64,000 nt of DNA. Source: Faecalibacterium sp. I4-1-79. Its GTDB lineage: Bacteria > Bacillota > Clostridia > Oscillospirales > Ruminococcaceae. Where the stretch lies: positions 1,550,001 through 1,614,000 of the forward strand of contig NZ_CP094467.1 in assembly GCF_023347235.1 (NCBI RefSeq). Reading direction: 5' to 3'. This document shows, piece by piece, positions 3,486-48,431 of this stretch (the stretch's first letter is position 1; each line of letters begins with the position of its first letter). The notes under the pieces are model-generated. The model was not told the origin of the DNA and made no database searches. It saw only the letters and a program-made list of their open reading frames with translations. A program made the position numbers and the translations under genes.

Positions 3486-4877
3486 ATGGTTTGCTTGGAA
3501 TACATTAACTTTGAACATAATACCGTTGCCGCCGAGCTGGTGCGGCAGACCTACGACACCCCGCCGCTGGCCTTTGTGCACAGCTACGGCTGTCAGCAGA
3601 ACGTCAACGACGGCGAGCGCATCAAGGGCGTGCTGGTAGATATCGGCTACGGCCTGTGCGATAAGCCCGAGGATGCCGACCTGATCCTGTTCAACACTTG
3701 CGCTGTGCGTGAGCACGCCGAGCAGCGGGTGTTCGGCAACGTGGGCGCGCTGAAAGGGCTCAAGGAAAAAAAGCCCGGCCTCATCATCGGCCTGTGCGGC
3801 TGCATGGCCAACCAGAAGCATGTTGTGGAAAAGCTGCGCAAGAGCTACCCCTATGTGGATCTGGTGTTCGGAGTGGACGGCATCGACACCCTGCCGCAGC
3901 TGATTGCCCAGAAGCTGCAAAAGCATAAGAGGGTGCTGCTGGATCCCGCACAGCGTCCGGTCATCGTGGAGAACATCCCCATCCGGCGCGAGAGCGAGTT
4001 CCGCGCATGGCTGCCTATCATGTACGGCTGCGACAACTTCTGCACCTACTGCATTGTGCCCTATGTCCGCGGCCGCGAGAAGAGCCGCAAGCCCGGCGAT
4101 ATCCTTGCGGAGTTCCGCAGCCTTGTGGAAGCGGGCTATAAGGAGATCACCCTGCTGGGTCAGAACGTGAACAGCTACGGTAAGGGGCTGGAGGAGCAGA
4201 TCGATTTCTCCGACCTGCTCAACCTGCTGTGCACCGTGCCCGGCGATTATCACATCCGCTTTATGACCAGCCACCCCAAGGACGCCAGCCATAAGCTCAT
4301 TGATACCATCGCCGCCCAGCCGAAGCTGTGCAAGCACCTGCATCTGCCGGTGCAGTGTGGTTCCGACCGGCTTTTGCAGCAGATGAACCGCCACTATACG
4401 GTGGAGCAGTATCTGGAGCTCATCGACTACGCCCGCAAGACCGTGCCCGGCATCACTTTTTCCAGCGATATCATCGTGGGCTTCCCCGGCGAGACCGAGG
4501 AGGACTTTGTAAAAACGCTGGAACTGGTGCGCAAGGTGGGGTATATGCAGCTGTTCACCTTTATCTACTCCAAGCGTACCGGCACCAAGGCTGCCGAAAT
4601 GCCGGACCCCACCCCCCGCAAGGAAAAGACCGACCGCATGACCCGCCTGCTGGCTACGCAGGACGAGATCGCCATGGCGCTGGTCAAGGCGCAGGTAGGG
4701 CAGACTGTCCGGGTGCTGGTGGAAGGTTACGGCCGCAACGAGGGCACCCTTTCCGGCCGGCTGGACAACAACCTGACCGTGGAGTTTGCCGCCGACCCGG
4801 CACTGCTGGGCAGCTACGCGACCGTACATCTTACCGGTGCCCGCGCCACTGTGCTGCTGGGCGAAGTGGAAGCATAA
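3486..4877 (+). CDS. miaB: tRNA-2-methylthio-N6-dimethylallyladenosine synthase
   Basis: MiaB is a radical SAM enzyme that methylthiolates i6A37 in tRNAs reading UNN codons; it acts after MiaA, which is encoded 6 kb downstream. The 463-residue protein has an N-terminal UPF0004 domain with cluster cysteines in SYGCQQN, FNTCAVRE and GLCGCMA. The radical SAM CxxxCxxC follows in GCDNFCTYCIVP near residue 180, and a TRAM domain occupies the last ~65 residues. The start at 3486 is supported by the GGAGAAGG stretch directly upstream, although the spacing is short, so the exact first codon is uncertain. A promoter lies at 3385-3413. The next gene, ylbF, follows after 60 bases, an order also known around miaB in Bacillus. 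Confidence 0.95.
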   Translation: MVCLEYINFEHNTVAAELVRQTYDTPPLAFVHSYGCQQNVNDGERIKGVLVDIGYGLCDKPEDADLILFNTCAVREHAEQRVFGNVGALKGLKEKKPGLIIGLCGCMANQKHVVEKLRKSYPYVDLVFGVDGIDTLPQLIAQKLQKHKRVLLDPAQRPVIVENIPIRRESEFRAWLPIMYGCDNFCTYCIVPYVRGREKSRKPGDILAEFRSLVEAGYKEITLLGQNVNSYGKGLEEQIDFSDLLNLLCTVPGDYHIRFMTSHPKDASHKLIDTIAAQPKLCKHLHLPVQCGSDRLLQQMNRHYTVEQYLELIDYARKTVPGITFSSDIIVGFPGETEEDFVKTLELVRKVGYMQLFTFIYSKRTGTKAAEMPDPTPRKEKTDRMTRLLATQDEIAMALVKAQVGQTVRVLVEGYGRNEGTLSGRLDNNLTVEFAADPALLGSYATVHLTGARATVLLGEVEA

Positions 4878-8107: not shown

Positions 8108-10240
8108 ATGGCAGTCATCCATGTTCTGGATAAGCATACCGCTGAACTGATCGCCGCCGGTGAGGTGGTGGAGCGCCCTGCATCGGTGGTCAAGGAGCTT
8201 TTGGAAAACTCCATCGACGCCGGTGCAACGCAGGTCACCGTCAGCATTGAATCCGGCGGTGTAAAGCTGATCGAGATCAGCGATAACGGCACAGGCATTG
8301 ATGCCGAGTATATCCCGACAGCCTTCATCCGCCACGCCACCAGCAAAATTGAAAAGCCGGATGACCTGAACAGCATCCATACACTGGGCTTCCGCGGCGA
8401 GGCACTGGCCTCTATTGCCAGCGTAGCGCGGGTAGAGCTGCTCACCCGCACCGAGGTGGACGAGTTTGCCACCTGCTACCGCATCGCCGGCGGCGAGGAG
8501 CAGGGCAGGGAGCCTGCCGCCCGTGCTGTGGGCACCACCATCCGGGTGCAGGACCTGTTCTACAACACCCCCGCCCGCATGAAGTTCCTCAAAAAGGACT
8601 CCAGCGAGGGCACCTTTGTGGCAGATAACGTGGGTCATGTGGCGCTCAGCCACCCGGAGGTCAGTGTCAAGTTCATCCGAGAGGGCAAGTTGCAATACGT
8701 CACCCCCGGCGATGGCCAGCTGCGCAGCGCCGCCTACGCGGTGCTGGGGCGAGAGTTCAGCCGCGACCTCATCGAGGTGCACTTGGAGGAAGGGCTGTAC
8801 CGGGTCACCGGTCTGATCACCCCACCCAAGAGCTGCCGTGCCAGCCGTAGTATGCAGCATTTCTACATCAATGGCCGCTATGTGCGCAACCGCACCATCA
8901 TGGCGGGCATGGAAATGGCCTTCAAGGGTACTACCATGCAGGGCAAGTTCCCGGGCGGCATCCTGCTGCTGGAAATGCCCACCGACCTTGTGGACGTCAA
9001 TGTCCACCCTGCAAAGATCGAAGCTCGCTTTGCCCGGGAAAACGACGTGTTCGATGTCATTTATCATGCGGTCAAGCTGGCGCTGGCACAGCCCGGCACC
9101 GGGGAACGACGCTTCACCTTTGAAGCAGACGAAAAAGAGCAAACTGAAAAAGAAAACGATACTCAGAGTGAAAATACTGTAAAGAATAATCACTTTACAG
9201 GACTTTCCGCCGTCATTCCGGGGCAAGCGGCCCCCGGCACACTGCCTGCGCAGTATTGGCAGGCATCCGCGCCGCAGCGCTCCGCCGATGCACCGGTGAA
9301 AACCCCTGCTTTTACGGCAGATAACCCGCCGGTACAGTCCGCACAGCCTGCCCGCGCGGCGGCTGCGCCCTCGTGGCGGCAGTCTAGCCCCGCAGAGGAT
9401 ATTCTGGACCCGGTGGTCACCCTCCACAGCCCGGAAAAACTGGATGCAACCGAAGTCCAGCCCGCACCGCAGCCCTTCCGGGCAGCCGCTGCTGAGACAC
9501 AGCTGGATGTGCACCCGGAGACGGACGCCGCAGCCGACCCGCCGCTGGATCACATGGTGGCATGGAACACCATGCCCGCCGCCCCGGAGATCGAAGCCGC
9601 AACGGCGCCCTATCAGCCGGAGGAGTCCGCGCAGCCGGAACAGCTGGGCTTTGATGTGCCGCAGGGGGAAGAACCGCTGCGCTATGTGGGCGAAGTATTC
9701 CGTACCTATATTCTTGCCGAGCGGGGAGACGAGCTGTGTCTGATCGATAAGCACGCTGCCCACGAGCGTCAGCTGTACGAAAAGCTTGCCGCCAACTACG
9801 GCAATGTGCCCAGCCAGCTGCTGCTGCAGCCCGCCGCCATCGACCTTTCCGCAGAGGAAAAGCAGGCGCTGCTGGAAAACCAGCCCCTGCTGGAAAACGC
9901 CGGGCTGGACGTGGCCGACTTTGGCGGCAGCACCGTGCTGCTGCGCGCCGTGCCTGCGGACGTAGAACCGCAAAACGCCGAGGACCTGCTGGTAGAGATC
10001 GCCGACCGCTTGCTCAAGGGCAGCCGGGACGCGCTGAACGAGCACACCGAGTGGGTGCTGCACTCCATCTCCTGTCGCGCCGCCATCAAGGCAGGGGACA
10101 AGTCCTCTCCGCAGGAGCTGATGGCACTGGCCGAGAAGATCCTCTCCGGCGAGGTGCCGCCCTTCTGCCCCCATGGCCGTCCCTGCGTGCTCAAGCTTAC
10201 CCGAAAGGAGTTGGAAAAGCAGTTTGGACGCATCGTGTAA
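8108..10240 (+). CDS. mutL: DNA mismatch repair protein MutL
   Basis: MutL couples mismatch recognition to strand excision. The 710-residue protein has the GHKL ATPase at the N-terminus: IAAGEVVERPASVVKELLENS, the Bergerat motif DNGTGID, and the HATSKI/GFRGEAL motifs. A long Pro/Ala/Glu-rich linker (about 340-510) follows, then the C-terminal dimerisation domain. That domain carries the nicking-endonuclease motif in the form DKHAAHERQLYE (Asp547 on); the canonical form is DQHA-x2-E-x4-E, so Gln is replaced by Lys. It also has SCRAAI and the CPHGRP metal motif near the end. These residues suggest it nicks DNA itself, as in bacteria lacking MutH. It overlaps the likely start of miaA. Confidence 0.97.
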   Translation: MAVIHVLDKHTAELIAAGEVVERPASVVKELLENSIDAGATQVTVSIESGGVKLIEISDNGTGIDAEYIPTAFIRHATSKIEKPDDLNSIHTLGFRGEALASIASVARVELLTRTEVDEFATCYRIAGGEEQGREPAARAVGTTIRVQDLFYNTPARMKFLKKDSSEGTFVADNVGHVALSHPEVSVKFIREGKLQYVTPGDGQLRSAAYAVLGREFSRDLIEVHLEEGLYRVTGLITPPKSCRASRSMQHFYINGRYVRNRTIMAGMEMAFKGTTMQGKFPGGILLLEMPTDLVDVNVHPAKIEARFARENDVFDVIYHAVKLALAQPGTGERRFTFEADEKEQTEKENDTQSENTVKNNHFTGLSAVIPGQAAPGTLPAQYWQASAPQRSADAPVKTPAFTADNPPVQSAQPARAAAAPSWRQSSPAEDILDPVVTLHSPEKLDATEVQPAPQPFRAAAAETQLDVHPETDAAADPPLDHMVAWNTMPAAPEIEAATAPYQPEESAQPEQLGFDVPQGEEPLRYVGEVFRTYILAERGDELCLIDKHAAHERQLYEKLAANYGNVPSQLLLQPAAIDLSAEEKQALLENQPLLENAGLDVADFGGSTVLLRAVPADVEPQNAEDLLVEIADRLLKGSRDALNEHTEWVLHSISCRAAIKAGDKSSPQELMALAEKILSGEVPPFCPHGRPCVLKLTRKELEKQFGRIV

Positions 10241-11179: not shown

Positions 11180-12493
11180 ATGCCGGAAACTCCTCAGGAA
11201 CCGCGCCACAAGCTCTCTGCGCTTACCACGCTGGCGGTCGTGCTGGCCACCTTTTTGCTGGCGGCGGCAGCGTATGTCTGCTGGCAGGCGGCGCACATCC
11301 TTTTCCCCCAGAACGTCTACGAAACGGCGCTGCCTATCACCATCTCCGATACCATTGAAGCGGACGGCGTGCTGCTGTTTGACGAAACCTGCATTTCCGG
11401 CAGCGGCAATCTGGGCTACCTTGTCTTGGACGGCGAGCGGGTGTCGGCAGGCACTGCCGTTGCAGAGCTGTACACCGATGCCAATCAGGCAGTGCTGCGC
11501 CAGCAGCTGACCCAGCTCACCAGCCAGATCGACCTGTTGCAGCGCTCCCAGAACACCGCAGCCACCCAGCTGGACGGCTTGCTCAAAGAGCGCTCCGGCG
11601 CACTGTACGATCTGCTGGATGCGCTGGACACCGACCGCTACAGCGATGTGGACAGCAGCGCCGATGCTTACCTGCTGGCGCAGAACAAGCTGTGGATCAC
11701 CACCGGCGATACCGCCGGCTTTGCGGATCAGATCGCGCTGCTTGCCCAGCAGGCACAGACCGTGCAGGGCCAGCTGGGCAACCCCACTCAGATCACCGCC
11801 CCCACCACCGGCTACTTTGTCCGGGCCGCCAGCAGCGGACGGCTGAATGCCGGTGCTGCGGACATTCTGGCACAGAGCCCGGAGCAGCTCAAGGCTTATC
11901 TGGACTCCGACCCCGAGATGCCGCTGGACGGCTGTGTAGGCAAGCTGGTAGCCGGGTTCAGCTGGCAGTACGCCGGGGTGTGCTCCGCAAAGCAGGCCGA
12001 AAAGCTGCTGGGCTCGGACGGTAAGCCCCTGCGCACGGCAGTGGAGATCAGCTTTCCCGGCCAGAGCGATGCCGCTCTGCGCGCCACCGTCACCGAGGTG
12101 ACCATTGACGCAGAAAAGGATATTGCCCGCTTTGTGCTGCGCTGCAACTCCATCAACGGCGATGTGCTGTGCCTCAACCACGCCCGCGCCCGTATCAGCA
12201 CCAGCGAGAGCACCGGTCTGCGGGTGCCTGCCGCAGCAGTGCACTACCTGAAAGAGGACGGCACCGAGGCTGAGACGCAGGGCGAAAACTATATCCCCGG
12301 CGTGTATGTCAAGTACGGCAACATCGCCCGCTTCTGCAAGATCGACCCCGTGGATGCCGACCATCCGCTGGTCACGGAAGAGGATTACATCCTTGTTTTG
12401 CCCAAGGGAACGGACGGTTCCGTCAGTCAGGTAAGGCTTTATGACGAAATAGTTGTCTCGGGACAAAATTTATATGACGGAAAACTTTTGTAG
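11180..12493 (+). CDS. HlyD-like membrane-anchored protein upstream of sepF
   Basis: A 437-residue protein with one N-terminal membrane segment (about residues 10-34) and a long extracytoplasmic part. It has the HlyD/biotinyl-lipoyl-like layout: a half-motif around GYLVLDGERVSAGTAVAELY, a coiled-coil stretch rich in Gln/Leu (about 105-150), a second half-motif ITAPTTGYFV, and a C-terminal beta domain. Such proteins occur upstream of sepF in many clostridia and are annotated as efflux adaptor-like, though no transporter is encoded nearby. A cell-envelope or division role is only inferred from position. The ATG at 11180 is preferred over 11171 because the GAAAGG element abuts the latter. The miaA stop overlaps this region. 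Confidence 0.75.
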   Translation: MPETPQEPRHKLSALTTLAVVLATFLLAAAAYVCWQAAHILFPQNVYETALPITISDTIEADGVLLFDETCISGSGNLGYLVLDGERVSAGTAVAELYTDANQAVLRQQLTQLTSQIDLLQRSQNTAATQLDGLLKERSGALYDLLDALDTDRYSDVDSSADAYLLAQNKLWITTGDTAGFADQIALLAQQAQTVQGQLGNPTQITAPTTGYFVRAASSGRLNAGAADILAQSPEQLKAYLDSDPEMPLDGCVGKLVAGFSWQYAGVCSAKQAEKLLGSDGKPLRTAVEISFPGQSDAALRATVTEVTIDAEKDIARFVLRCNSINGDVLCLNHARARISTSESTGLRVPAAAVHYLKEDGTEAETQGENYIPGVYVKYGNIARFCKIDPVDADHPLVTEEDYILVLPKGTDGSVSQVRLYDEIVVSGQNLYDGKLL

Positions 12494-40238: not shown

Positions 40239-40607
40239 TTAAACCAGCCGTCGGGCAAGCCACTCCAGCCGCTCCACCTCTACCTGTGCGCGGCGCAGCT
40301 CGCCCAGCGCCTCCTCGGTGGCTTGCTGCTCAAGGTATCCGTCTGCCGCCCGCAGCGCGGCTTCCAGTTCCGTGTAGTCGGCCGTGCGCAGCAGATGGCT
40401 CATAGTTTCCCGCATGGTGTCGCACAGCTCTGCACCCTCGGCAAGTGCCTGCCGCGCGGTGGCAAAGTCCTTCTGCCGTACAGCCTCAAGAGCACAGTCC
40501 AAGTCAGCTGAGATGTCCTGTGCAAAGCCCTGCACCCGTCCGCTGCTGTAAAGAGATATCCCCAGCAGCGCCGCCACGATCAGGATACACGCATAGATCC
40601 GCTTCAT
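40239..40607 (-). CDS. DUF4363 family protein
   Basis: A 122-residue protein with an N-terminal signal anchor (about residues 4-20) and a helical extracytoplasmic domain rich in Ala, Leu and Glu. Members of DUF4363 regularly lie next to DUF421 genes in clostridia; their function is unknown. The ATG at 40605-40607 is preceded by GGAGG and lies inside the DUF421 stop (ATGA overlap), so a longer reading is unlikely. The pair diverges from the germinant-receptor-like operon, which hints at a spore or envelope role, but nothing in the sequence proves it. Confidence 0.75.
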   Translation of the reverse strand: MKRIYACILIVAALLGISLYSSGRVQGFAQDISADLDCALEAVRQKDFATARQALAEGAELCDTMRETMSHLLRTADYTELEAALRAADGYLEQQATEEALGELRRAQVEVERLEWLARRLV

Positions 40608-41296
40608 CGTTTTCCTCCCGGCTGACGGCCTTCCTTTTTCAGCAGAAAATAGTCCTCGGTCTCGTTGCCGATAAGCAGTAAAATCTCCTGTGGCAGCACC
40701 GTGTTTGCCGTGGCGGTGCGTTCCAGCCACGCACGGTCCTTGCCGCACCAGTGCAGATTATCCTCCAGCACCTGTCCGTCCAGCACAAAGGGAATGGTGG
40801 CCTGTGTCTGCTGTACTTTCAACTGTAAATCGGAGAGGGTGGCTGCTTCCTGCTCCGGGCGCAGCGCCGCCGACAGCGTGCCGTTTGTTTCAATGACAGC
40901 GTAGGATACCCTGCGCGGGTCAAAGATATCCTTGCCGCGCAGCGCCTCCATCAGGTCTGCGGTGGTCAGCCGCAGCATCCGCAAAGCGTTTTGATCGATC
41001 TTTCCGTCCAGAATCACCGTTTTGGGACGCCCGGAGAGAAAATTGAAGAACTTCTGGCTGCGGAAGCTCACCACTGAACCCAGCAGCTCCAGCGCCGCAA
41101 TAAGAAATAGCGGGATCAGACTGGCAGTGATGGGCACATCTTCTGATTCAATGGAGATGGATGCCAGATTGGAGATCAGGATGGTGGATACCAGCTCCTC
41201 CGGCTGCAATTCTCCCAGCTGGCGCTTGCCCATCAGCCGCATGGCAAACAAAACGCAGAGATACAAAATAATAGTGCGGCAAAGCAGCAGTTTCAT
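40604..41296 (-). CDS. DUF421 (YetF-type) membrane protein
   Basis: A 230-residue protein with three N-terminal membrane helices (about residues 4-22, 30-50 and 60-80) and a cytoplasmic DUF421 domain. The family motifs MRLMGKRQLGELQPEELV and GRPKTVILDGKIDQNAL are clear. DUF421 proteins such as YetF are linked to spore and envelope functions in Bacillus, but no activity is defined. The ATG at 41294-41296 has a GGAGGG upstream. It overlaps DUF4363 by four bases. The divergent gerA-type gene starts 76 bases away, so the two units may share regulatory sites. Confidence 0.88.
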   Translation of the reverse strand: MKLLLCRTIILYLCVLFAMRLMGKRQLGELQPEELVSTILISNLASISIESEDVPITASLIPLFLIAALELLGSVVSFRSQKFFNFLSGRPKTVILDGKIDQNALRMLRLTTADLMEALRGKDIFDPRRVSYAVIETNGTLSAALRPEQEAATLSDLQLKVQQTQATIPFVLDGQVLEDNLHWCGKDRAWLERTATANTVLPQEILLLIGNETEDYFLLKKEGRQPGGKR

Positions 41297-41372
41297 GCAC
41301 AAACCCTCCCGGTGCGGTGTGCGCGCGTATTCCGTTGCGGCAAAGCGGGTATACTGCACACACAAAGGAGTG

Positions 41373-42839
41373 ATGGATGTGCAGCAGCTTTCGCAAAGCC
41401 TTGCGGAAAACCTGTCCGCGCTTGATGCTAGGTTTGGCAAATCGGCAGATTATTATGCGAAGAAGATCGTTTTGTACGGCTGCCCGGGGTGCATCGTAAT
41501 GTTTGACGGCATGGCAAGCTTGGATTCGCTCTGGGAGCTGTTGCTGGACGCCGCCGGGCGGCAGTCTGCTTCTGTCCGCCTTACCGGTGCACAGGCCTAT
41601 GCGCATATCCTGCACGGCTCGGCGTTTCCGGCCGAGAGCACTCCGGTGCAGGATATGCCGCAGCTCGTAGCGCGGCTGACGGCGGGCATGGCGGTGCTGC
41701 TTTTAGAGGGCTGCAGCAGCGGTATCGTTTTTTCGGTACAGGGGCTCAAGTTCCGCTCCGTAGAAGAACCATCCGCCGAGGGCAACCTGCGCGGCAGCAG
41801 GGAAGGCTTTACCGACCTTCTGCGGGTGAACCTGAGCCTTCTGCGCCGCCTTGTCCGTACCGATACCCTTATGCAGGAGGCTGCACAGGCGCACACTTGC
41901 TGCAATACCGAGTACGCTCTTTGCTACTGCAAGGACCGTGCCGACCCCGCCATGGTGCGCCGGGTGCGCGCCATTTTGCAAAGCGCACGGCCGGAGCTGC
42001 TGCTGGATTCCAGCTATTTTGTACCGTGGCTGCTGCCCGGCAAGGCGCGGCTGTTCACCCCGGTGCACTACACCGAGCGCCCGGCGGTCGCTGCCGCAAA
42101 GCTCTGCGAGGGCAAGCTGGTAATTTTGGTCAACGGCAGCCCCTCAGCACTGGTGCTGCCCGCGCTGTTCAGCGAGCAGTTCGAATGTCTGGACGACTAT
42201 GCCTCTACAGCTGCCTTTTCCTCTTTTCTGCGGGTGCTGAAGTACGTTTCCTTTTATCTTACGGTGTTTTTGCCGGGGGTGTTTGTGTGCGTGGCGGTGT
42301 ATCTGCCGGAGCTGCTGCCCCCGCAGCTGCTGTATAAGATCGAAGCAGCCGAAAAGGCCACCCCGCTGCCCCTGTTTGCCGAGATGCTGCTGGTGATCCT
42401 GATCTTAGAGATCATCCGGGAGGCCGGGCTGCGGATGCCGCAGTCACTGGGGCACTCGGTCAGTCTGGTGTCGGCGCTCATCATTGGCGATGCCGCCATT
42501 GCCACCGGGCTCATGAGCACCCCGGTCATCTTTGTTGCAAGTATTACCGCCATTGCAGTCTTTGTCACCCCGGGCCTGTACGAGCCTGCCACCCTGCTGC
42601 GCATCGGCACGGTGCTGCTGGCGGGGCTTGCCGGACCGGTAGGGCTGGCAGCGGCGTTTTTCGGCTTTCTGCTCAGCATCGTCAGCACCGAAGCATTGGG
42701 TGTGCCGTATCTTGCGCCGCACCCCTTCCCGCAGCAGCCGTTCTCTGAGGACGGCGTTCTGCGCCGCAACTACCGACAGCTGTCCCGGCACGGGTTCAAT
42801 ATCTGGCAAAAACGGGAGAGGGGGAGAAAGCAGTCATGA
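41373..42839 (+). CDS. GerA-type spore germinant receptor subunit A
   Basis: A 488-residue protein of the GerAA/GerBA/SpoVAF family, which form germinant receptors in the inner spore membrane. A soluble N-terminal half (about 1-265) is followed by membrane helices. The most conserved block of the family is present: MPQSLGHSVSLVSALIIGDA (about 350) and then VIFVASITAIAVFVTPG. The length is normal. AAAGGAG lies only two bases before the ATG at 41373; the in-frame GTG at 41379 would give better spacing, so the first codon is uncertain. It overlaps the next gene by ATGA. The presence of an intact A subunit is notable for a lineage regarded as asporogenous. Confidence 0.87.
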   Translation: MDVQQLSQSLAENLSALDARFGKSADYYAKKIVLYGCPGCIVMFDGMASLDSLWELLLDAAGRQSASVRLTGAQAYAHILHGSAFPAESTPVQDMPQLVARLTAGMAVLLLEGCSSGIVFSVQGLKFRSVEEPSAEGNLRGSREGFTDLLRVNLSLLRRLVRTDTLMQEAAQAHTCCNTEYALCYCKDRADPAMVRRVRAILQSARPELLLDSSYFVPWLLPGKARLFTPVHYTERPAVAAAKLCEGKLVILVNGSPSALVLPALFSEQFECLDDYASTAAFSSFLRVLKYVSFYLTVFLPGVFVCVAVYLPELLPPQLLYKIEAAEKATPLPLFAEMLLVILILEIIREAGLRMPQSLGHSVSLVSALIIGDAAIATGLMSTPVIFVASITAIAVFVTPGLYEPATLLRIGTVLLAGLAGPVGLAAAFFGFLLSIVSTEALGVPYLAPHPFPQQPFSEDGVLRRNYRQLSRHGFNIWQKRERGRKQS

Positions 42840-43624
42840 AACAGCACACAGAACGTTTTACCCCGGCGGCGCTGACGCTCAGCGTGGTCACCACAGCACT
42901 GGCAGACGGCATCCCGCAGAGCGTCCCGGTGCGTCGGGCGCTGTGGCTGGGCGCAGTCAGCACGGTGTGCCTGTGCATTCTTTCGGCGCTGGCAGCAGCG
43001 GCGCTGCGGGATAAAGCACCCTCCTTGGCGGTACGGCTGGCACTGACAGCCGGCTTTTTTATGGGACTGGTGCACACCCTCGTGCAGGCACAAGGGCTGT
43101 GCACGGCAGAGTTTTCCTCCATGGCGCTGCTGGGCTTTCTGCCGCTGCTGCTCTGGGCGGGGTGGCGCATCCGTCCCGCAAGCTGGAATGCCTCGGCGCG
43201 GGTGCTGTGGTGGTTTGTAGCCGTGGGCGGCGTGGTCTGTCTGCTGGGGCTTGCCGGTCAACTGCACTGGTACCGGCTGTTCACCACGACACAGCCGGCC
43301 GCAGCAGGCTGTAGCGTGCCGGTCTACGCAGAATACTTTGCCGGAGCCCTTCTGTGCAGCGCCCGGTCGGCGCGCCGCACGGTCTGGTTGCCGGTATGGG
43401 GCTTTGCGGTGCAGGCGGCGGCTTTGATGGGCAGTGCTTTGCTGTTTGGCAGCGGCGCATACCCTCGGCTGGAGCTGCTGCGGGCGTGGAGCAGCGGAAG
43501 CTTTTCCCGCATGGATGCGCTGCTTTTGCTGCTGTGGCTGCTGTGTGCCGTCTACCGGGCGTCCATGCTGTGCACTGCCATCCGCTTGCTTTGGCAGCAG
43601 CCGGAAGCCGAGGTGCAGCCATGA
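42836..43624 (+). CDS. GerB-type membrane protein, shortened or diverged
   Basis: A 262-residue protein with about seven to eight membrane segments, at the place where germinant-receptor operons encode subunit B. Typical B subunits have about 360 residues and ten helices, so this one is short. The C-terminal part is most like the family: the LELLRAWSSGSFSRMDALLLLLW stretch is reminiscent of the conserved region around RIE in GerAB. The start overlaps gerA by ATGA and its stop overlaps the next start. The assignment rests on position, topology and this segment, so it is moderate. Confidence 0.6.
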   Translation: MKQHTERFTPAALTLSVVTTALADGIPQSVPVRRALWLGAVSTVCLCILSALAAAALRDKAPSLAVRLALTAGFFMGLVHTLVQAQGLCTAEFSSMALLGFLPLLLWAGWRIRPASWNASARVLWWFVAVGGVVCLLGLAGQLHWYRLFTTTQPAAAGCSVPVYAEYFAGALLCSARSARRTVWLPVWGFAVQAAALMGSALLFGSGAYPRLELLRAWSSGSFSRMDALLLLLWLLCAVYRASMLCTAIRLLWQQPEAEVQP

Positions 43625-44580
43625 GAAAACAGAAATCTTGCAAGCCGCTGCTGTATTTGCTGTTGACGGGGTGGTGCTTTTTGTTCCTGCGCTGCGAAAG
43701 CACCGAGAAAAGCATGGTGCGGGCGGTGTATCTGGCACAGACCGAACAGGGGTATCAGGCAGGGCTGCTCTATCAGGCACCGCAGGCCGCCGCCGATGCC
43801 GCCGATGCCTCTGCCGCATTGCAGTTTGTGCAGGCAGAGGGCCAAACGATGGAGCGGGCACTGGATGCGGCAGAGCAGGCACTGCCCCAAACCGCAAGCT
43901 ATCGCCTGTGTGATTACCTGCTGCTGCCAAAAGCGGAAGAGCCATTACTAACAGAGTACGAGCAGCTGGTGCTGCGGCGCGGCTGCGGACGCACGGCGGC
44001 AAGGCTGCTTTGCGCAGAAGGAGAGATAGACCACCTTGCCACACGGGCCGCCCTGCCGGATGCTCTGATGGCACAGCTAAAGGCTGCCGCGCCCACCGCG
44101 CCCCGTCTGTATCAGCACACAGAGCCGGGGCTTCTGCCTGTTCTCCGGTGGAGCGCGGAAGAGGTGACGATACAGGAGGGCGGCGTTCTGCATACCGTGG
44201 CGGCTAATATACCCTTGTCCCCGGAGCAGGCCGAGGTTTTCCGGCTGCTTGCCGGGCAGGGTGGCACCCGGCAGCTCTGGCTGGAAGGGGAGCGCATCGG
44301 CATCCGGCGCTGCACCGTTTCGGTCACCCTGCAAAAGGGGCAGGTGCTTGTGCGGCTGGACTGCCAACGTGCCGCCCACAGCCCATTGCCCACGCAGGCG
44401 CAGCAGCAACAGCTTGCGGCGCAGTGTGCCGCGCTTTTGCAAAGCTGCTGGCAGCAGGGCGTGGATGCGCTACACCTGCAGGCCCGGGCAACGCTGCGGG
44501 ATGGCAGCGGCGCAAACTTTGACCCAACAAAAAACGCCTGCCCGCAATGGCGGACAGACGTGCATTTCATGCTGTATTAA
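43621..44580 (+). CDS. GerC-type germinant receptor lipoprotein
   Basis: A 319-residue protein at the place of subunit C. A short basic N-terminus and a hydrophobic stretch (about 8-24) end in FLRC, a plausible lipobox-like site with Cys25, although arginine before the cysteine is unusual. The late segment CWQQGVDALHLQARATLRDG resembles the conserved GVDxFGxG-type end of GerAC proteins. It is somewhat shorter than the usual ~370 residues. It is coupled to the B gene by ATGA. Its stop shares the bases TTAA with the stop of the convergent phoR gene, with no terminator between them. Confidence 0.6.
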   Translation: MRKQKSCKPLLYLLLTGWCFLFLRCESTEKSMVRAVYLAQTEQGYQAGLLYQAPQAAADAADASAALQFVQAEGQTMERALDAAEQALPQTASYRLCDYLLLPKAEEPLLTEYEQLVLRRGCGRTAARLLCAEGEIDHLATRAALPDALMAQLKAAAPTAPRLYQHTEPGLLPVLRWSAEEVTIQEGGVLHTVAANIPLSPEQAEVFRLLAGQGGTRQLWLEGERIGIRRCTVSVTLQKGQVLVRLDCQRAAHSPLPTQAQQQQLAAQCAALLQSCWQQGVDALHLQARATLRDGSGANFDPTKNACPQWRTDVHFMLY

Positions 44581-45926
44581 GAGGCGGTAGGAAAGGTGAT
44601 CGTGATGGTGGTGCCAACGTCCACCTGACTTTCCAGCTTGATGCGGGCGTTGTGGATACGGGCAATGTGCTTGACGATGGCAAGCCCAAGCCCGGTGCCG
44701 CCGGTGGCCTTGCTGCGGCTCTTATCCACCCGGTAAAAGCGCTCGAACACGCTGGCCTGTGCTTCCCGCGGGATGCCGATGCCGTTATCCGTTACGGTCA
44801 GGGAGCAGTGCCCGTCCCGGCTGCAGGCGGTAATGATTTGCACCTTGCCGCCCGGGCGGTTGTAGCGGATGGCATTGTCGCACAGGTTCTGGCACAGTTC
44901 ATCCAGCAGCGCGCGGCTGCCAAGCACCGGGGCGCTCTCGCCCAAATAGGTCAGGGAGATATACGCACGGCGGGCGTTCAGTTTCTGGCGCTCCACGCAC
45001 TCCTTGACAACCTCCAAAAGGTCTACCGTTTCCATCACCGGGGCGTCTCCGGTCTCGCTTACGGTATCCAGCTTGGAAAGCTGCAAAATATCGTTGACCA
45101 GCTGGATCATGCGGGTGGCCTCGCTGTGGATCTTACGGCCGAAATCCGGCACATCCTCCGGCTTTGCAATGCCGGTCTCGATCAGCTCTGCGTAGCCGGA
45201 AATGCTGGTCAGCGGGGTCTTGAGCTCGTGGCTGACGTTGGCGGTAAACTCCTGCCGCATCTTCTCGTTGTTCTCCCGCAGAATGCGGTCAGAATGGATG
45301 CTTTCCGCAAAAGGAATCAGTTCCCGGTAGGGCACGTTTTCCTGAATGTGATCCAGATCCTCGGTCATGTTCAGCACCGGCTGCACCAGAGCTTTGGTCA
45401 ACAGGGCTGCCAGCACTGCAGCGGCCAGCATCAGCGCCACACAGCTCAGTACGATGGCAGGAATGGTGGCATCATAGATGGACCACACGGTCTCGGCGTC
45501 CTGTGCCACGCGCAGCACATCCCCGCCGGAAAGCCGGAGCGCATAATAATAGGTCTCGTAGCCCATGGTCTGGGAGTCGCGGATGTCCCGACCCTCGCCG
45601 TTTGCAATGGCATCGCGGATCTCCGGGCGGGTCAGATGGTTCTCCATGGGCTGGTCGGTGGCAGATTCAAACAGCACGCTGCCGTCCTGACTGATCAACG
45701 TCACGCGCAGATCATCGGTCACAAAGGAACTCAGCTGCGCGGGGTCTCCGGTCTGCTCGTACCCGGCGCGCACAAGGTCGGTCTCGCGCTCAAGCCCCGA
45801 CCATGCCTGCGCCGTAAAGGCCTTATGGAACACAAAAATGCACAGCGCTGCGGTGAATACAAGCCCCAGAAAGCCCATCAGGAACAACCGGTAGCTGATC
45901 TTTTCTTCCATGCTGCGCAGCTTCAT
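44577..45926 (-). CDS. phoR: sensor histidine kinase, PhoR-like
   Basis: A 449-residue membrane kinase. Two membrane segments (about 12-34 and 155-177) frame an extracytoplasmic sensor domain. Then come a HAMP-like linker, the phospho-acceptor His233 in NVSHELKTPLTS, the N box LCQNLCDNAIRYN, and the G boxes DNGIGIP and GGTGLGLAIVK. It resembles PhoR in the cytoplasmic part. It overlaps the regulator gene by ATGA. The operon also encodes a Na/phosphate cotransporter and has Pho-box-like repeats, which supports phosphate sensing; the ligand is otherwise unknown. Confidence 0.85.
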   Translation of the reverse strand: MKLRSMEEKISYRLFLMGFLGLVFTAALCIFVFHKAFTAQAWSGLERETDLVRAGYEQTGDPAQLSSFVTDDLRVTLISQDGSVLFESATDQPMENHLTRPEIRDAIANGEGRDIRDSQTMGYETYYYALRLSGGDVLRVAQDAETVWSIYDATIPAIVLSCVALMLAAAVLAALLTKALVQPVLNMTEDLDHIQENVPYRELIPFAESIHSDRILRENNEKMRQEFTANVSHELKTPLTSISGYAELIETGIAKPEDVPDFGRKIHSEATRMIQLVNDILQLSKLDTVSETGDAPVMETVDLLEVVKECVERQKLNARRAYISLTYLGESAPVLGSRALLDELCQNLCDNAIRYNRPGGKVQIITACSRDGHCSLTVTDNGIGIPREAQASVFERFYRVDKSRSKATGGTGLGLAIVKHIARIHNARIKLESQVDVGTTITITFPTAS

Positions 45927-46609
45927 TCTTCTTCGGCCTCCTCATCGGTCAGCTTGTAGCCTACCTTGCGCACGGTGCAGATGTAACGCCCCGCATCGCC
46001 CAGCTTTTTTCGCAGGGTGCGGATGTGCATATCCACGGTACGGCTCTCCACCGAGATATCGGTGCCCCACACCACCTGCAAAATGGTCTCGCGGGTCACC
46101 ACCAGACCGTTGTTTTCCAGTAGCAGCCGCAGCAGGCAGTATTCCTTGTAAGTCAGCTCCACAGGGGTGCTGTTCACTGTGACGCTGTGGCGGGCGTTGT
46201 TCAGCTGAATTTCATGGAACACCAGCACGTCCGGTCTTACCTCCGGGGCAGAGCGCCGCAGTGCCACACGCACCCGGCTGAGAAACTCCATAATGCCAAA
46301 GGGCTTTGCAATGTAATCATCCGCGCCGCAGTCCAGCCCGCGCACGGTGTCCAGTTCGCTGGATTTTGCAGTGACCATAATGATGGGCAGCTTGCGCAGG
46401 GAAGGGGTGTTGCGCAGCTTTTTCAGGATGGAAAAGCCGTCCTCGCCGGGCAGCATTACGTCTAAGATCACCAGCTCTGGCTCAGCGGCGCGCATGGCCT
46501 GCCAGAAGGGCTCTGCACTCTCAAAGCCCTGCACCTCGTAGCCGTTGGATTGCAGGGCGTACTGCTCCAGTTCGCGGATGGAAGCATCGTCCTCTACAAT
46601 ATAGATCAT
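45923..46609 (-). CDS. phoB: response regulator, PhoB-like (OmpR family)
   Basis: A 228-residue OmpR/PhoB-type regulator. The receiver has the acidic pair EDD (about 6-8), phospho-acceptor Asp50 in LVILDVMLPGEDGF, Thr in VTAK and Lys in AKPF. The C-terminal winged helix ends with SVESRTVDMHIRTLRKKLG and a YICTVRKVGYKL wing. It starts three bases after the cotransporter and is coupled to the kinase. It probably activates its own operon through the TTTACAT repeats at 48456-48512, which is inference from the repeats and gene order. Confidence 0.88.
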   Translation of the reverse strand: MIYIVEDDASIRELEQYALQSNGYEVQGFESAEPFWQAMRAAEPELVILDVMLPGEDGFSILKKLRNTPSLRKLPIIMVTAKSSELDTVRGLDCGADDYIAKPFGIMEFLSRVRVALRRSAPEVRPDVLVFHEIQLNNARHSVTVNSTPVELTYKEYCLLRLLLENNGLVVTRETILQVVWGTDISVESRTVDMHIRTLRKKLGDAGRYICTVRKVGYKLTDEEAEEE

Positions 46610-46612
46610 AAC

Positions 46613-48394
46613 TCAGTTCTCCTCAGCAGTCTGTCCGTCCGGGAACAGATACCGCTCACGGTAGCGGCCCAGACGGCGGTGGAATTCTTCACTTTCCTTT
46701 GTGTCGTTGCCGTGGCGCAGGTCATTCAGGTAAGCGTGGGTGTCAAAGCTGTCCTGTGCCACCTCGATCTGCGCAACTGCCACGTTGCTGCAATGGTCGC
46801 ACACACGCTCGTAGTTGGTCAGCAGATCGTCCAGCACAAAGCCGTACTCGATGGAGCAGCTGCCGGCCTGCAGGCGGGCAACGTGCCGCGCCTTGATGGC
46901 ACGCACCAGCTCGTTGACCACGGCCTCCAACGGCTCAACCTTAGAAGCAAGGTGCAGATCGCTCTTGCGGAAGGCATCGGTGGTGCGGCTCAGGGTATCC
47001 TGCACCGCATCCTCCAGCACCTGCAGCTCCTCCTGTGCATCCTTGGAGAAGTGGATTTCCTTCTGGTGCATCTCCTCGGCAGATTCCAGCAGGTTAACGG
47101 AATGGTCGCTGATACGCTCAAAATCACTGATAGTGTGCAGCAGGGTGTTCACGCTCTGGCTGTCGGTATGGTTCAGCTCCCGGCCGGACAGCTTGACCAG
47201 ATAAGTGCCCAGTGCGTCCTCGTACCGATCCACCCGGCACTCCTCATCCCGCACCTTCTGGGCAAGTTCATCGTTCCATTCGTGGGTCAGGCTCATGGCC
47301 TGCACCACGCCCACCCGGGCAAGCTCGGCCATTTCGGCAGTAGCGGCGCGGGCACGCTCCACAGCCACGGCGGGGGTGTTCAGCAGACGGTCATCCAGCA
47401 GAGCAAACTCCTCTTTTTCCGGGGAATCGGGAATGGTCAGGATGGCCAGCTTTTCCAGTCCGGTGGCAAAAGGCAGCAGAATGACGGTAGCCAGAATGTT
47501 GAATACCGAGTGCACGATTGCAATGCCCCAGGCCTCGATGGTGGTATTCACAAAGGCAAAGTGGCAGACGGCGTTGAGCCCATAGAATCCGAACAGGAAG
47601 ATGCTTACACCGATGATGTTGAAGTACAGGTGCACCATAGCGGCCCGGCGGGCGTTCTTATTCGCACCCACCGAGGACAGCAGTGCGGTCACACAGGTAC
47701 CGATGTTCTGCCCCATGATGATGGGGATGGCACTGCCATAGGTGATGACACCGGTGGCGCTCAGTGCCTGCAGGATGCCCACGCTGGCGCTGGAGCTCTG
47801 GATGATGCCGGTGACCAGTGCGCCCACCAGAACGCCCAGCAGGGGGTTGGAGAAGCGGGTGAACAGACTGGTGAACCATGCCTCGTTTTGCAGCGGCAGC
47901 ACCGCGTTGGACATGGTGGTCATGCCGGTCATCAGCACGGCAAAGCCGATAAGGATAGTGCCCACGCCTTTTTTCTTCTCACTCTTACACATATACAGCA
48001 AAATGCCGATAAATGCAAGCACCGGGCTGAAAGAAGTGGGCTTGAGCAGCTGGATGAACAGGCTGTCGCCCTGCAAACCGGAAAGACTCAAGATCCAGCT
48101 GGTCACGGTAGTGCCTACGTTGCTGCCCATGATCACGCCAATGGCCTGATGCAGCTCCATGATGCCACTGTTGACAAAACCCACCACCATAACGGTGGTA
48201 GCGCTGGAACTCTGGATGACGGCAGTCACACACAGACCCAGAAAAAAGCCCTTGAGGGGGTTATCGGTCAGTTTGCTGAGAATTTTTTGCAGCTGGCCGC
48301 CGGCCTGCTTTTCCAGTGCCTTGCCCATGATGTCCATACCGAACAAAAACAGGGCCAGACCTCCCAGCAGCGAAAAGACATTAAAAATGGTCAT
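46613..48394 (-). CDS. Na/Pi cotransporter family protein with PhoU-like domain
   Basis: A 593-residue protein. The membrane part has two copies of the Na/Pi cotransporter motif: QSSSATTVMV (about 65) and QSSSASVGIL (about 205), with the accompanying GxNxGTT-type GSNVGTTVT and GQNIGTCVT. The last ~220 residues form a helical PhoU-like domain with DFERISDHS and YERVCDHCSN. It likely imports phosphate with sodium. The ATG at 48394 is preferred over the GTG at 48409 because GAGG lies about nine bases before it. It is the first gene of an operon with phoB and phoR. Confidence 0.92.
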   Translation of the reverse strand: MTIFNVFSLLGGLALFLFGMDIMGKALEKQAGGQLQKILSKLTDNPLKGFFLGLCVTAVIQSSSATTVMVVGFVNSGIMELHQAIGVIMGSNVGTTVTSWILSLSGLQGDSLFIQLLKPTSFSPVLAFIGILLYMCKSEKKKGVGTILIGFAVLMTGMTTMSNAVLPLQNEAWFTSLFTRFSNPLLGVLVGALVTGIIQSSSASVGILQALSATGVITYGSAIPIIMGQNIGTCVTALLSSVGANKNARRAAMVHLYFNIIGVSIFLFGFYGLNAVCHFAFVNTTIEAWGIAIVHSVFNILATVILLPFATGLEKLAILTIPDSPEKEEFALLDDRLLNTPAVAVERARAATAEMAELARVGVVQAMSLTHEWNDELAQKVRDEECRVDRYEDALGTYLVKLSGRELNHTDSQSVNTLLHTISDFERISDHSVNLLESAEEMHQKEIHFSKDAQEELQVLEDAVQDTLSRTTDAFRKSDLHLASKVEPLEAVVNELVRAIKARHVARLQAGSCSIEYGFVLDDLLTNYERVCDHCSNVAVAQIEVAQDSFDTHAYLNDLRHGNDTKESEEFHRRLGRYRERYLFPDGQTAEEN

Positions 48395-48431
48395 AAGTGT
48401 TTTCCTCACTTTATCTTGACGTGTTTTTCTC

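Follow-up and report, generated by a model that had tools for sequence, protein, structure and literature searches.

The window analyzed here, a stretch of 64,000 nucleotides from Faecalibacterium sp. I4-1-79 (bases 1550001–1614000 of a single 3,227,950-base contig; the genome is 99.87% complete), contains three consecutive genes resembling those of a GerA-type spore germinant receptor. The original prediction, made from the letters of this DNA, described them as an intact GerA subunit, a shortened GerB-like protein, and a GerC-like lipoprotein, coupled by ATGA overlaps and possibly belonging to a Faecalibacterium relative. The operon layout was verified, with its coordinates and two ATGA overlaps (at the gerA/gerB-like and gerB-like/gerC-like joints) on the plus strand throughout. 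The guess at the organism also held: the closest GerA proteins by identity are those of F. prausnitzii APC923/51-1 (98%) and ATCC 27768 (97%), and all nine of the named relatives found are Faecalibacterium. The main features are as follows.

41373–42839, plus strand: gerA, germinant receptor A subunit, with its start at 41373 (ATG) or 41379 (GTG); match to PF03323, E 4.4e-114
42836–43624, plus strand: gerB-like gene, joined by an ATGA overlap; truncated B subunit whose predicted model covers about TM1–TM8 of the APC/LeuT fold, with the C-terminal helices absent
43621–44580, plus strand: gerC-like gene, joined by an ATGA overlap; C subunit without a lipobox, its N-terminal helix predicted by the model at residues 8–25
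41327–41356, plus strand: match to a sigma F/G-like (forespore-type) promoter pattern, with -35 GTATT, a 15-nucleotide spacer, and -10 GGGTATACTG

The A subunit is full length. In a Pfam search of the window's proteins, the PF03323 match scores 382 bits and spans profile positions 3–461 of 466, which bears out the description of the gene as intact. The protein also resembles a solved chain of a germination protein, PDB 6o59 (2.1e-24). The GTG at 41379, which is preceded by AAAGGAG in the window, may be the true start, because several relatives open gerA with ATG-CAG-CAG. A single GerA copy is found in each of 28 Faecalibacterium species, and all 28 matches are free of internal stops; GerA is also found in 109 of 118 genomes of the family.

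SpoVAF is a GerA-family protein and has that type of subunit in common with the Faecalibacterium locus. SpoVAF and FigP form an ion channel (PMC11841064; papers are cited throughout for individual passages), and the locus could in principle encode an accessory channel of this type instead of a primary germinant receptor. Its position and its partners argue otherwise, as gerA, at 1.59 Mb, lies outside the spoVA operon and some 1.37 Mb away from those genes on the same contig (SpoVAD is at 217 kb), is accompanied by homologues of GerB and GerC with APC and GerBC folds, respectively, and is the sole GerA-family match in the genome. A SpoVAF/FigP-like channel is very improbable.

The B and C subunits

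Searched against Pfam and NCBIfam, the GerB-like and GerC-like proteins of the window reach the cut-off of no family, and profile searches run with the two against PDB sequences were unconvincing. Their homology is based on folds, relatives, and synteny and not on sequence matches of their own. PF03845 (Spore_permease) is matched by 9 of 25 members of the GerB alignment with relatives, and PF25198 (Spore_GerAC_N) by three of the nine Faecalibacterium members and, when the set is widened, by 14 of 24; neither group of matches includes the window protein.

The predicted GerB model (pLDDT 80) has the APC-superfamily fold. The top Foldseek matches are APC transporters (best E 0.21, probability 0.97). 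With VIA-align, AdiC residues 5–309 align over nearly the whole GerB length at a Z of about 16 and LeuT residues 4–371 at about 15, with an rmsd of 3.2–3.5 for these alignments; both scores lie above the Z of 13 that is the caution level for helical proteins. Rows 3, 10, and 11, which are AdiC and ApcT, give a Z of 15.9–16.2 over 253–255 aligned residues, and a human cation-chloride cotransporter, NKCC1, equals the top scores at 16.4.

The B subunit of GerA-type receptors has ten transmembrane helices. The AdiC alignments stop at residue 308–309 and most of those to LeuT near 371 (3gi8, 3gi9, 3mpn, and 7lql stop later), end points that we take to correspond to TM1–TM8, and the predicted GerB covers about eight helices. 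The lengths agree with a shortened protein, as originally described: 262 amino acids in the window and 260–292 in 28 of 29 Faecalibacterium rows, compared with 290–358 in 12 rows from other genera. The remaining Faecalibacterium row, L108, has a GerB of 232 amino acids, a start that is probably mis-set, as is that of the L115 GerC. A C-terminal extension seen in 10 of the 12 other-genus rows is absent from the window GerB. Seven duplicate copies of loci already in the set were removed before counting, and L006 and L107 are near-identical. Two loci from other genera, L114 and L118, also have a short GerB (290–291 amino acids). Shortening of the B subunit may have occurred more than once, because in the GerA tree these two branch separately.

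The predicted GerC model (pLDDT 83.9) has the GerBC fold. B. subtilis GerBC (3n54) is its sole significant Foldseek match in PDB (6e-10), and VIA aligns 215 residues of the two at a Z of 11.3 and an rmsd of 3.7, with the next row at 6.7. The lipid anchor is another matter. At the expected lipobox site the window protein reads FLRC, with Arg before the Cys, and none of 19 inspected Faecalibacterium GerC rows carries a lipobox where the signal helix ends; the lone pattern match, MAGC at residue 11 of L091, lies N-terminal to the helix. Among GerC proteins of other genera a lipobox is present in 6 of 11 by pattern and 8 of 11 by eye. The original description of a GerC-like lipoprotein therefore stands for the GerC likeness, while the lipoprotein is ruled out.

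At the locus itself, gerC was not found in 9 of 29 Faecalibacterium rows, a count that covers the locus only, as the rest of the genome was not searched. The nine (L084, L087, L088, L090, L093, L099, L103, L104, and L105) group as one clade in the GerA tree (support 100/99) and have a spoIVB homologue directly after gerB. In the one row of the nine given an HMM check, L105, SpoIVB scores over its cut-off and is followed by a SpoIIIAA match below cut-off. L084 has a SpoIIIAD match downstream, also below cut-off.

Selection, promoter, and sporulation genes

Selection on the operon was estimated as simple pairwise Nei–Gojobori dN/dS between the window and nine chosen relatives. Six distant relatives mostly have a dS near or above 1 and were not relied on, and the three closest pairs were used. 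These give 0.034, 0.056, and 0.052 for gerA; 0.236, 0.165, and 0.211 for gerB; and 0.193, 0.207, and 0.209 for gerC, with 0.036–0.057 for the neighboring kinase in the closest pairs. All three ger genes are under purifying selection, which is strongest on gerA.

The aligned regions upstream of gerA share a conserved pair, GnATn plus GGGCATACTG. Search patterns for sigma-F and sigma-G were built on consensus sequences, that of B. subtilis in the case of sigma-F. The sigma-F form, whose -35 was widened after the alignment had been viewed, occurs in 21 of 27 Faecalibacterium rows against a shuffle mean of 0.04 and no match on the reverse strand. The strict sigma-G pattern occurs in 15 of 27 (reverse strand 1, shuffle mean 0.18) and in 2 of 14 rows from other genera. 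The rows leave out L008, whose contig begins at gerA, and L009, and the upstream regions of spoVAC, sigG, and spoIVB were inspected by eye and excluded from the counts. When both strands of the 64 kb are searched, the sigma-F form is matched in full twice, at 41327–41356 and at 4872. A strict sigma-G scan over 204 kb of the genome gave one match, elsewhere than gerA, with 2.2 expected. The pattern suggests that gerA has a promoter of forespore (sigma F/G) type and predicts expression to match.

The idea of a lineage devoid of sporulation genes did not survive a search for them. Matches were obtained for spo0A, sigF, sigG, sigE, sigK, spoIIE, and spoVA, those for SigF and SpoIIE being divergent, and most of the genes tested are present, with the alpha/beta small acid-soluble spore proteins (SASPs) absent. 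In this genome Spo0A, SpoIVA, SpoIVB, SpoIIAB, SpoVAD, SigG, and GPR score over their curated cut-offs, SigE, SpoVAE, and SpoVAC just below them, and SigK below; the endospore set of Spo0A, sporulation sigma factors, SpoIVA, and SpoVA is thus represented. Across the genus, SpoIVA is found in 28 of 28 Faecalibacterium, SpoVAD in 25 of 28, and GPR, the protease that acts on SASPs, also in 25 of 28. SigG is matched strongly (E at or below 1.5e-100) in 27 of 28, with an internal stop in one of them and none reaching the TIGR02850 cut-off. The lineage is far from poor in sporulation genes, yet its set is nonstandard.

Across the 118 family genomes, gerA is lost together with SpoIVA: both are found in 108, neither in 7, SpoIVA alone in 2, and GerA alone in 1 (Fisher p 5e-9, which is indicative since the genomes are related). 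Alpha/beta SASP is present in 90 of the 118, and GerA is kept in 21 of the 28 family genomes that lack it, eight of these 28 having been identified by elimination.

Two further observations concern sporulation genes. At L079, in the spoVA region, a GPR-like protease match (11391–11978) starts roughly 0.9 kb past the spoVAE gene. L082 carries at 9098–9844 a second protein with a Spo0A_C domain (27.9 bits, cut-off 25), for which no NCBIfam match was found at E 1e-5.

One account of this mixture is a slowly eroding relic of lost sporulation, with gerC going, gerB shortened, and the remainder lingering. While gerB and gerC are relaxed compared with gerA, and gerC is absent from the locus in one clade, gerA itself has a dN/dS of 0.034–0.056 in the closest pairs, its matches carry no stops in 28 of 28 cases, and the promoter pattern is retained over deep divergence. 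Similarly, the absent SASPs and the divergent SigF, SpoIIGA, and SpoIIE are what erosion would leave, but the genus-wide presence of SpoIVA, SpoVAD, and GPR is not, and uniformity across a genus would hardly be expected of decay. Purifying selection, the stop-free GerA matches, and the conserved promoter pattern lead us to reject simple decay, as had already been argued from the open frames, and an eroding relic is improbable.

Alternatively, GerA and GerB could have been repurposed as a vegetative nutrient-gated channel or sensor unconnected with spores. A truncated GerB, a GerC that has no lipobox or is missing at the locus, the lack of alpha/beta SASPs, and the non-spore-forming phenotype described for the genus would all be accommodated. 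A vegetative role would leave unexplained the forespore-type promoter pattern, the joint loss of gerA and SpoIVA over 118 genomes, the spoIVB immediately behind gerB in the nine rows, and the retention of other sporulation genes. Repurposing is disfavored because of the first three and is, in our estimate, unlikely. The original prediction had offered a relic, a repurposed receptor, or cryptic sporulation; simple decay fails on selection, stops, and promoter, repurposing is disfavored, and a link to sporulation finds support at the level of genes.

A receptor for an overlooked spore-like stage?

The reading we prefer, with a probability of roughly 70%, is that the operon encodes a streamlined germinant receptor of the GerA type, passed on vertically and still part of a forespore program. 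The operon is real and conserved, and it most likely encodes a working receptor within a retained program. The receptor looks minimal because its B subunit lacks the last helices and its C subunit either is without a lipid anchor or is not found at the locus.

A number of results weigh against this reading. SigF, SpoIIAA, and SpoIIGA fall far below curated cut-offs in this genome. SpoIIE is matched in 28 of 28 Faecalibacterium, but no match reaches the TIGR02865 cut-off and two are weak fragments, and canonical alpha/beta SASP (PF00269) is found in 0 of 28 Faecalibacterium genomes. For the promoter, the sigma-F form depends on the widened -35, matches 1 of 14 rows from other genera with 2 on the reverse strand, and is the only form that the window's own site fits, as that site misses the strict sigma-G pattern; the promoter rows, like the family genomes, are phylogenetically related, and counts over them overstate independence. 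The dN/dS values of gerB and gerC are about three to seven times those of gerA. Foldseek with the GerB model returned no match at E 0.001 or better, and by its model the protein lacks the last helices of a B subunit. For studied receptors, each of A, B, and C is described as essential (PMC13170314), a point that counts here because gerC is absent at the locus in a clade of the genus and GerB is shortened. Finally, Faecalibacterium is described as non-spore-forming (PMC6295017), and no reports of observed Faecalibacterium spores were found in the literature examined.

That literature is divided on the label. The putatively nonsporulating lineage of the original prediction agrees with the description in PMC6295017, while a review lists F. 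prausnitzii in passing among spore-formers (PMC8953710), the Ruminococcaceae have been called a spore-forming family (PMC4890681), and most of the tested genes are present. According to one study, Spo0A and numerous sporulation genes can be present in organisms that seem not to form spores, the right conditions for sporulation may have been missed in such organisms, and B. selenitireducens, which has lost sporulation, is without SASP genes (PMC3533761). Caution is advised because a group including Faecalibacterium is reported in PMC7924749 to retain the spoIIIA operon but to lack SpoIID. No statement about a Faecalibacterium germinant receptor was found in the literature sampled, and no claim is made that none is in print.

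Like the Bacillus receptors GerAA/AB/AC, GerBA/BB/BC, and GerIA/IB/IC, the locus has an A-B-C operon with a full-length GerA, an APC-fold B, a GerBC-fold C, and a forespore-type promoter pattern. It differs in that the B subunit ends after about eight helices, the C subunit lacks a lipobox and in nine species is not found at the locus, each genome of the genus has one GerA gene, and no spores are reported in the literature found. Candidatus Arthromitus is similar in having a single gerABC operon and a reduced set of sporulation genes; unlike Faecalibacterium, which has no PF00269 match, it has two SASP genes and observed spores (PMC3533761). Gut former-spore-formers are likewise Firmicutes without reported spores; in the passages describing them, germination-stage genes are reported absent (PMC8340488), whereas Faecalibacterium keeps the receptor, SpoVA, and GPR.

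Known receptors are described as nutrient-gated ion channels, with A as the pore, B as the germinant-binding subunit, and C on the outer face (PMC11841064, PMC13170314). By analogy, sigma F/G would produce gerABC in a forespore-like compartment, as the promoter pattern hints. GerA oligomers would then form a membrane cation channel, and GerB would hold a small nutrient in an APC-type pocket, roles taken from known receptors and matched here by fold. GerC would sit outside the membrane on an uncleaved helix that replaces the lipid anchor. The open channel would trigger SpoVA, of which the AC, AD, and AE genes are in the genome, and SpoVA might open in a real spore.

A conserved receptor together with many spore genes suggests a spore-like stage that has been overlooked or is blocked late. 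More tentatively, Faecalibacterium and close relatives may possess an unrecognized program in which a dormant cell without canonical SASPs is woken by GerA and an eight-helix GerB channel, in some species without GerC; this is possible, though doubtful. The genus can account for up to 15% of the bacteria in the human gut (PMC6295017), and its extreme oxygen sensitivity, described in the same paper, and non-spore-forming label would make its travel from host to host a puzzle. With the conserved receptor, the forespore-type promoter pattern, and the kept sporulation sigma factors, a hidden dormant stage can be tested for directly. The streamlined receptor also amounts to a natural experiment on which regions of GerB and GerC can be dispensed with.

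Gene neighborhood and inheritance

Two genes lie on the other side of the promoter pattern.

40604–41296, minus strand: yetF-like (DUF421) gene, divergent from gerA; PF04239, 3.1e-30
40239–40607, minus strand: DUF4363 protein, paired with the yetF-like gene; PF14276, 2.5e-08

The yetF-like gene adjoins gerA in the window, in all 27 testable distinct Faecalibacterium relatives, and at 10 of 14 loci from other genera. The DUF4363 gene keeps its position in 25 of the 27, and nrdR lies beyond the yetF-like gene at 8 of the 14. Given these conserved yetF/nrdR surroundings, vertical inheritance is the simplest explanation for the locus. In B. subtilis, loss of YetF leads to defects in germinant-receptor-dependent germination, and YetF is needed for the normal process (PMC11841064).

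Convergent to gerC, the window encodes a PhoR/PhoB-like two-component pair and a Na/Pi cotransporter with a PhoU domain (44577–48409), and the stop codons of the neighboring kinase and gerC overlap.

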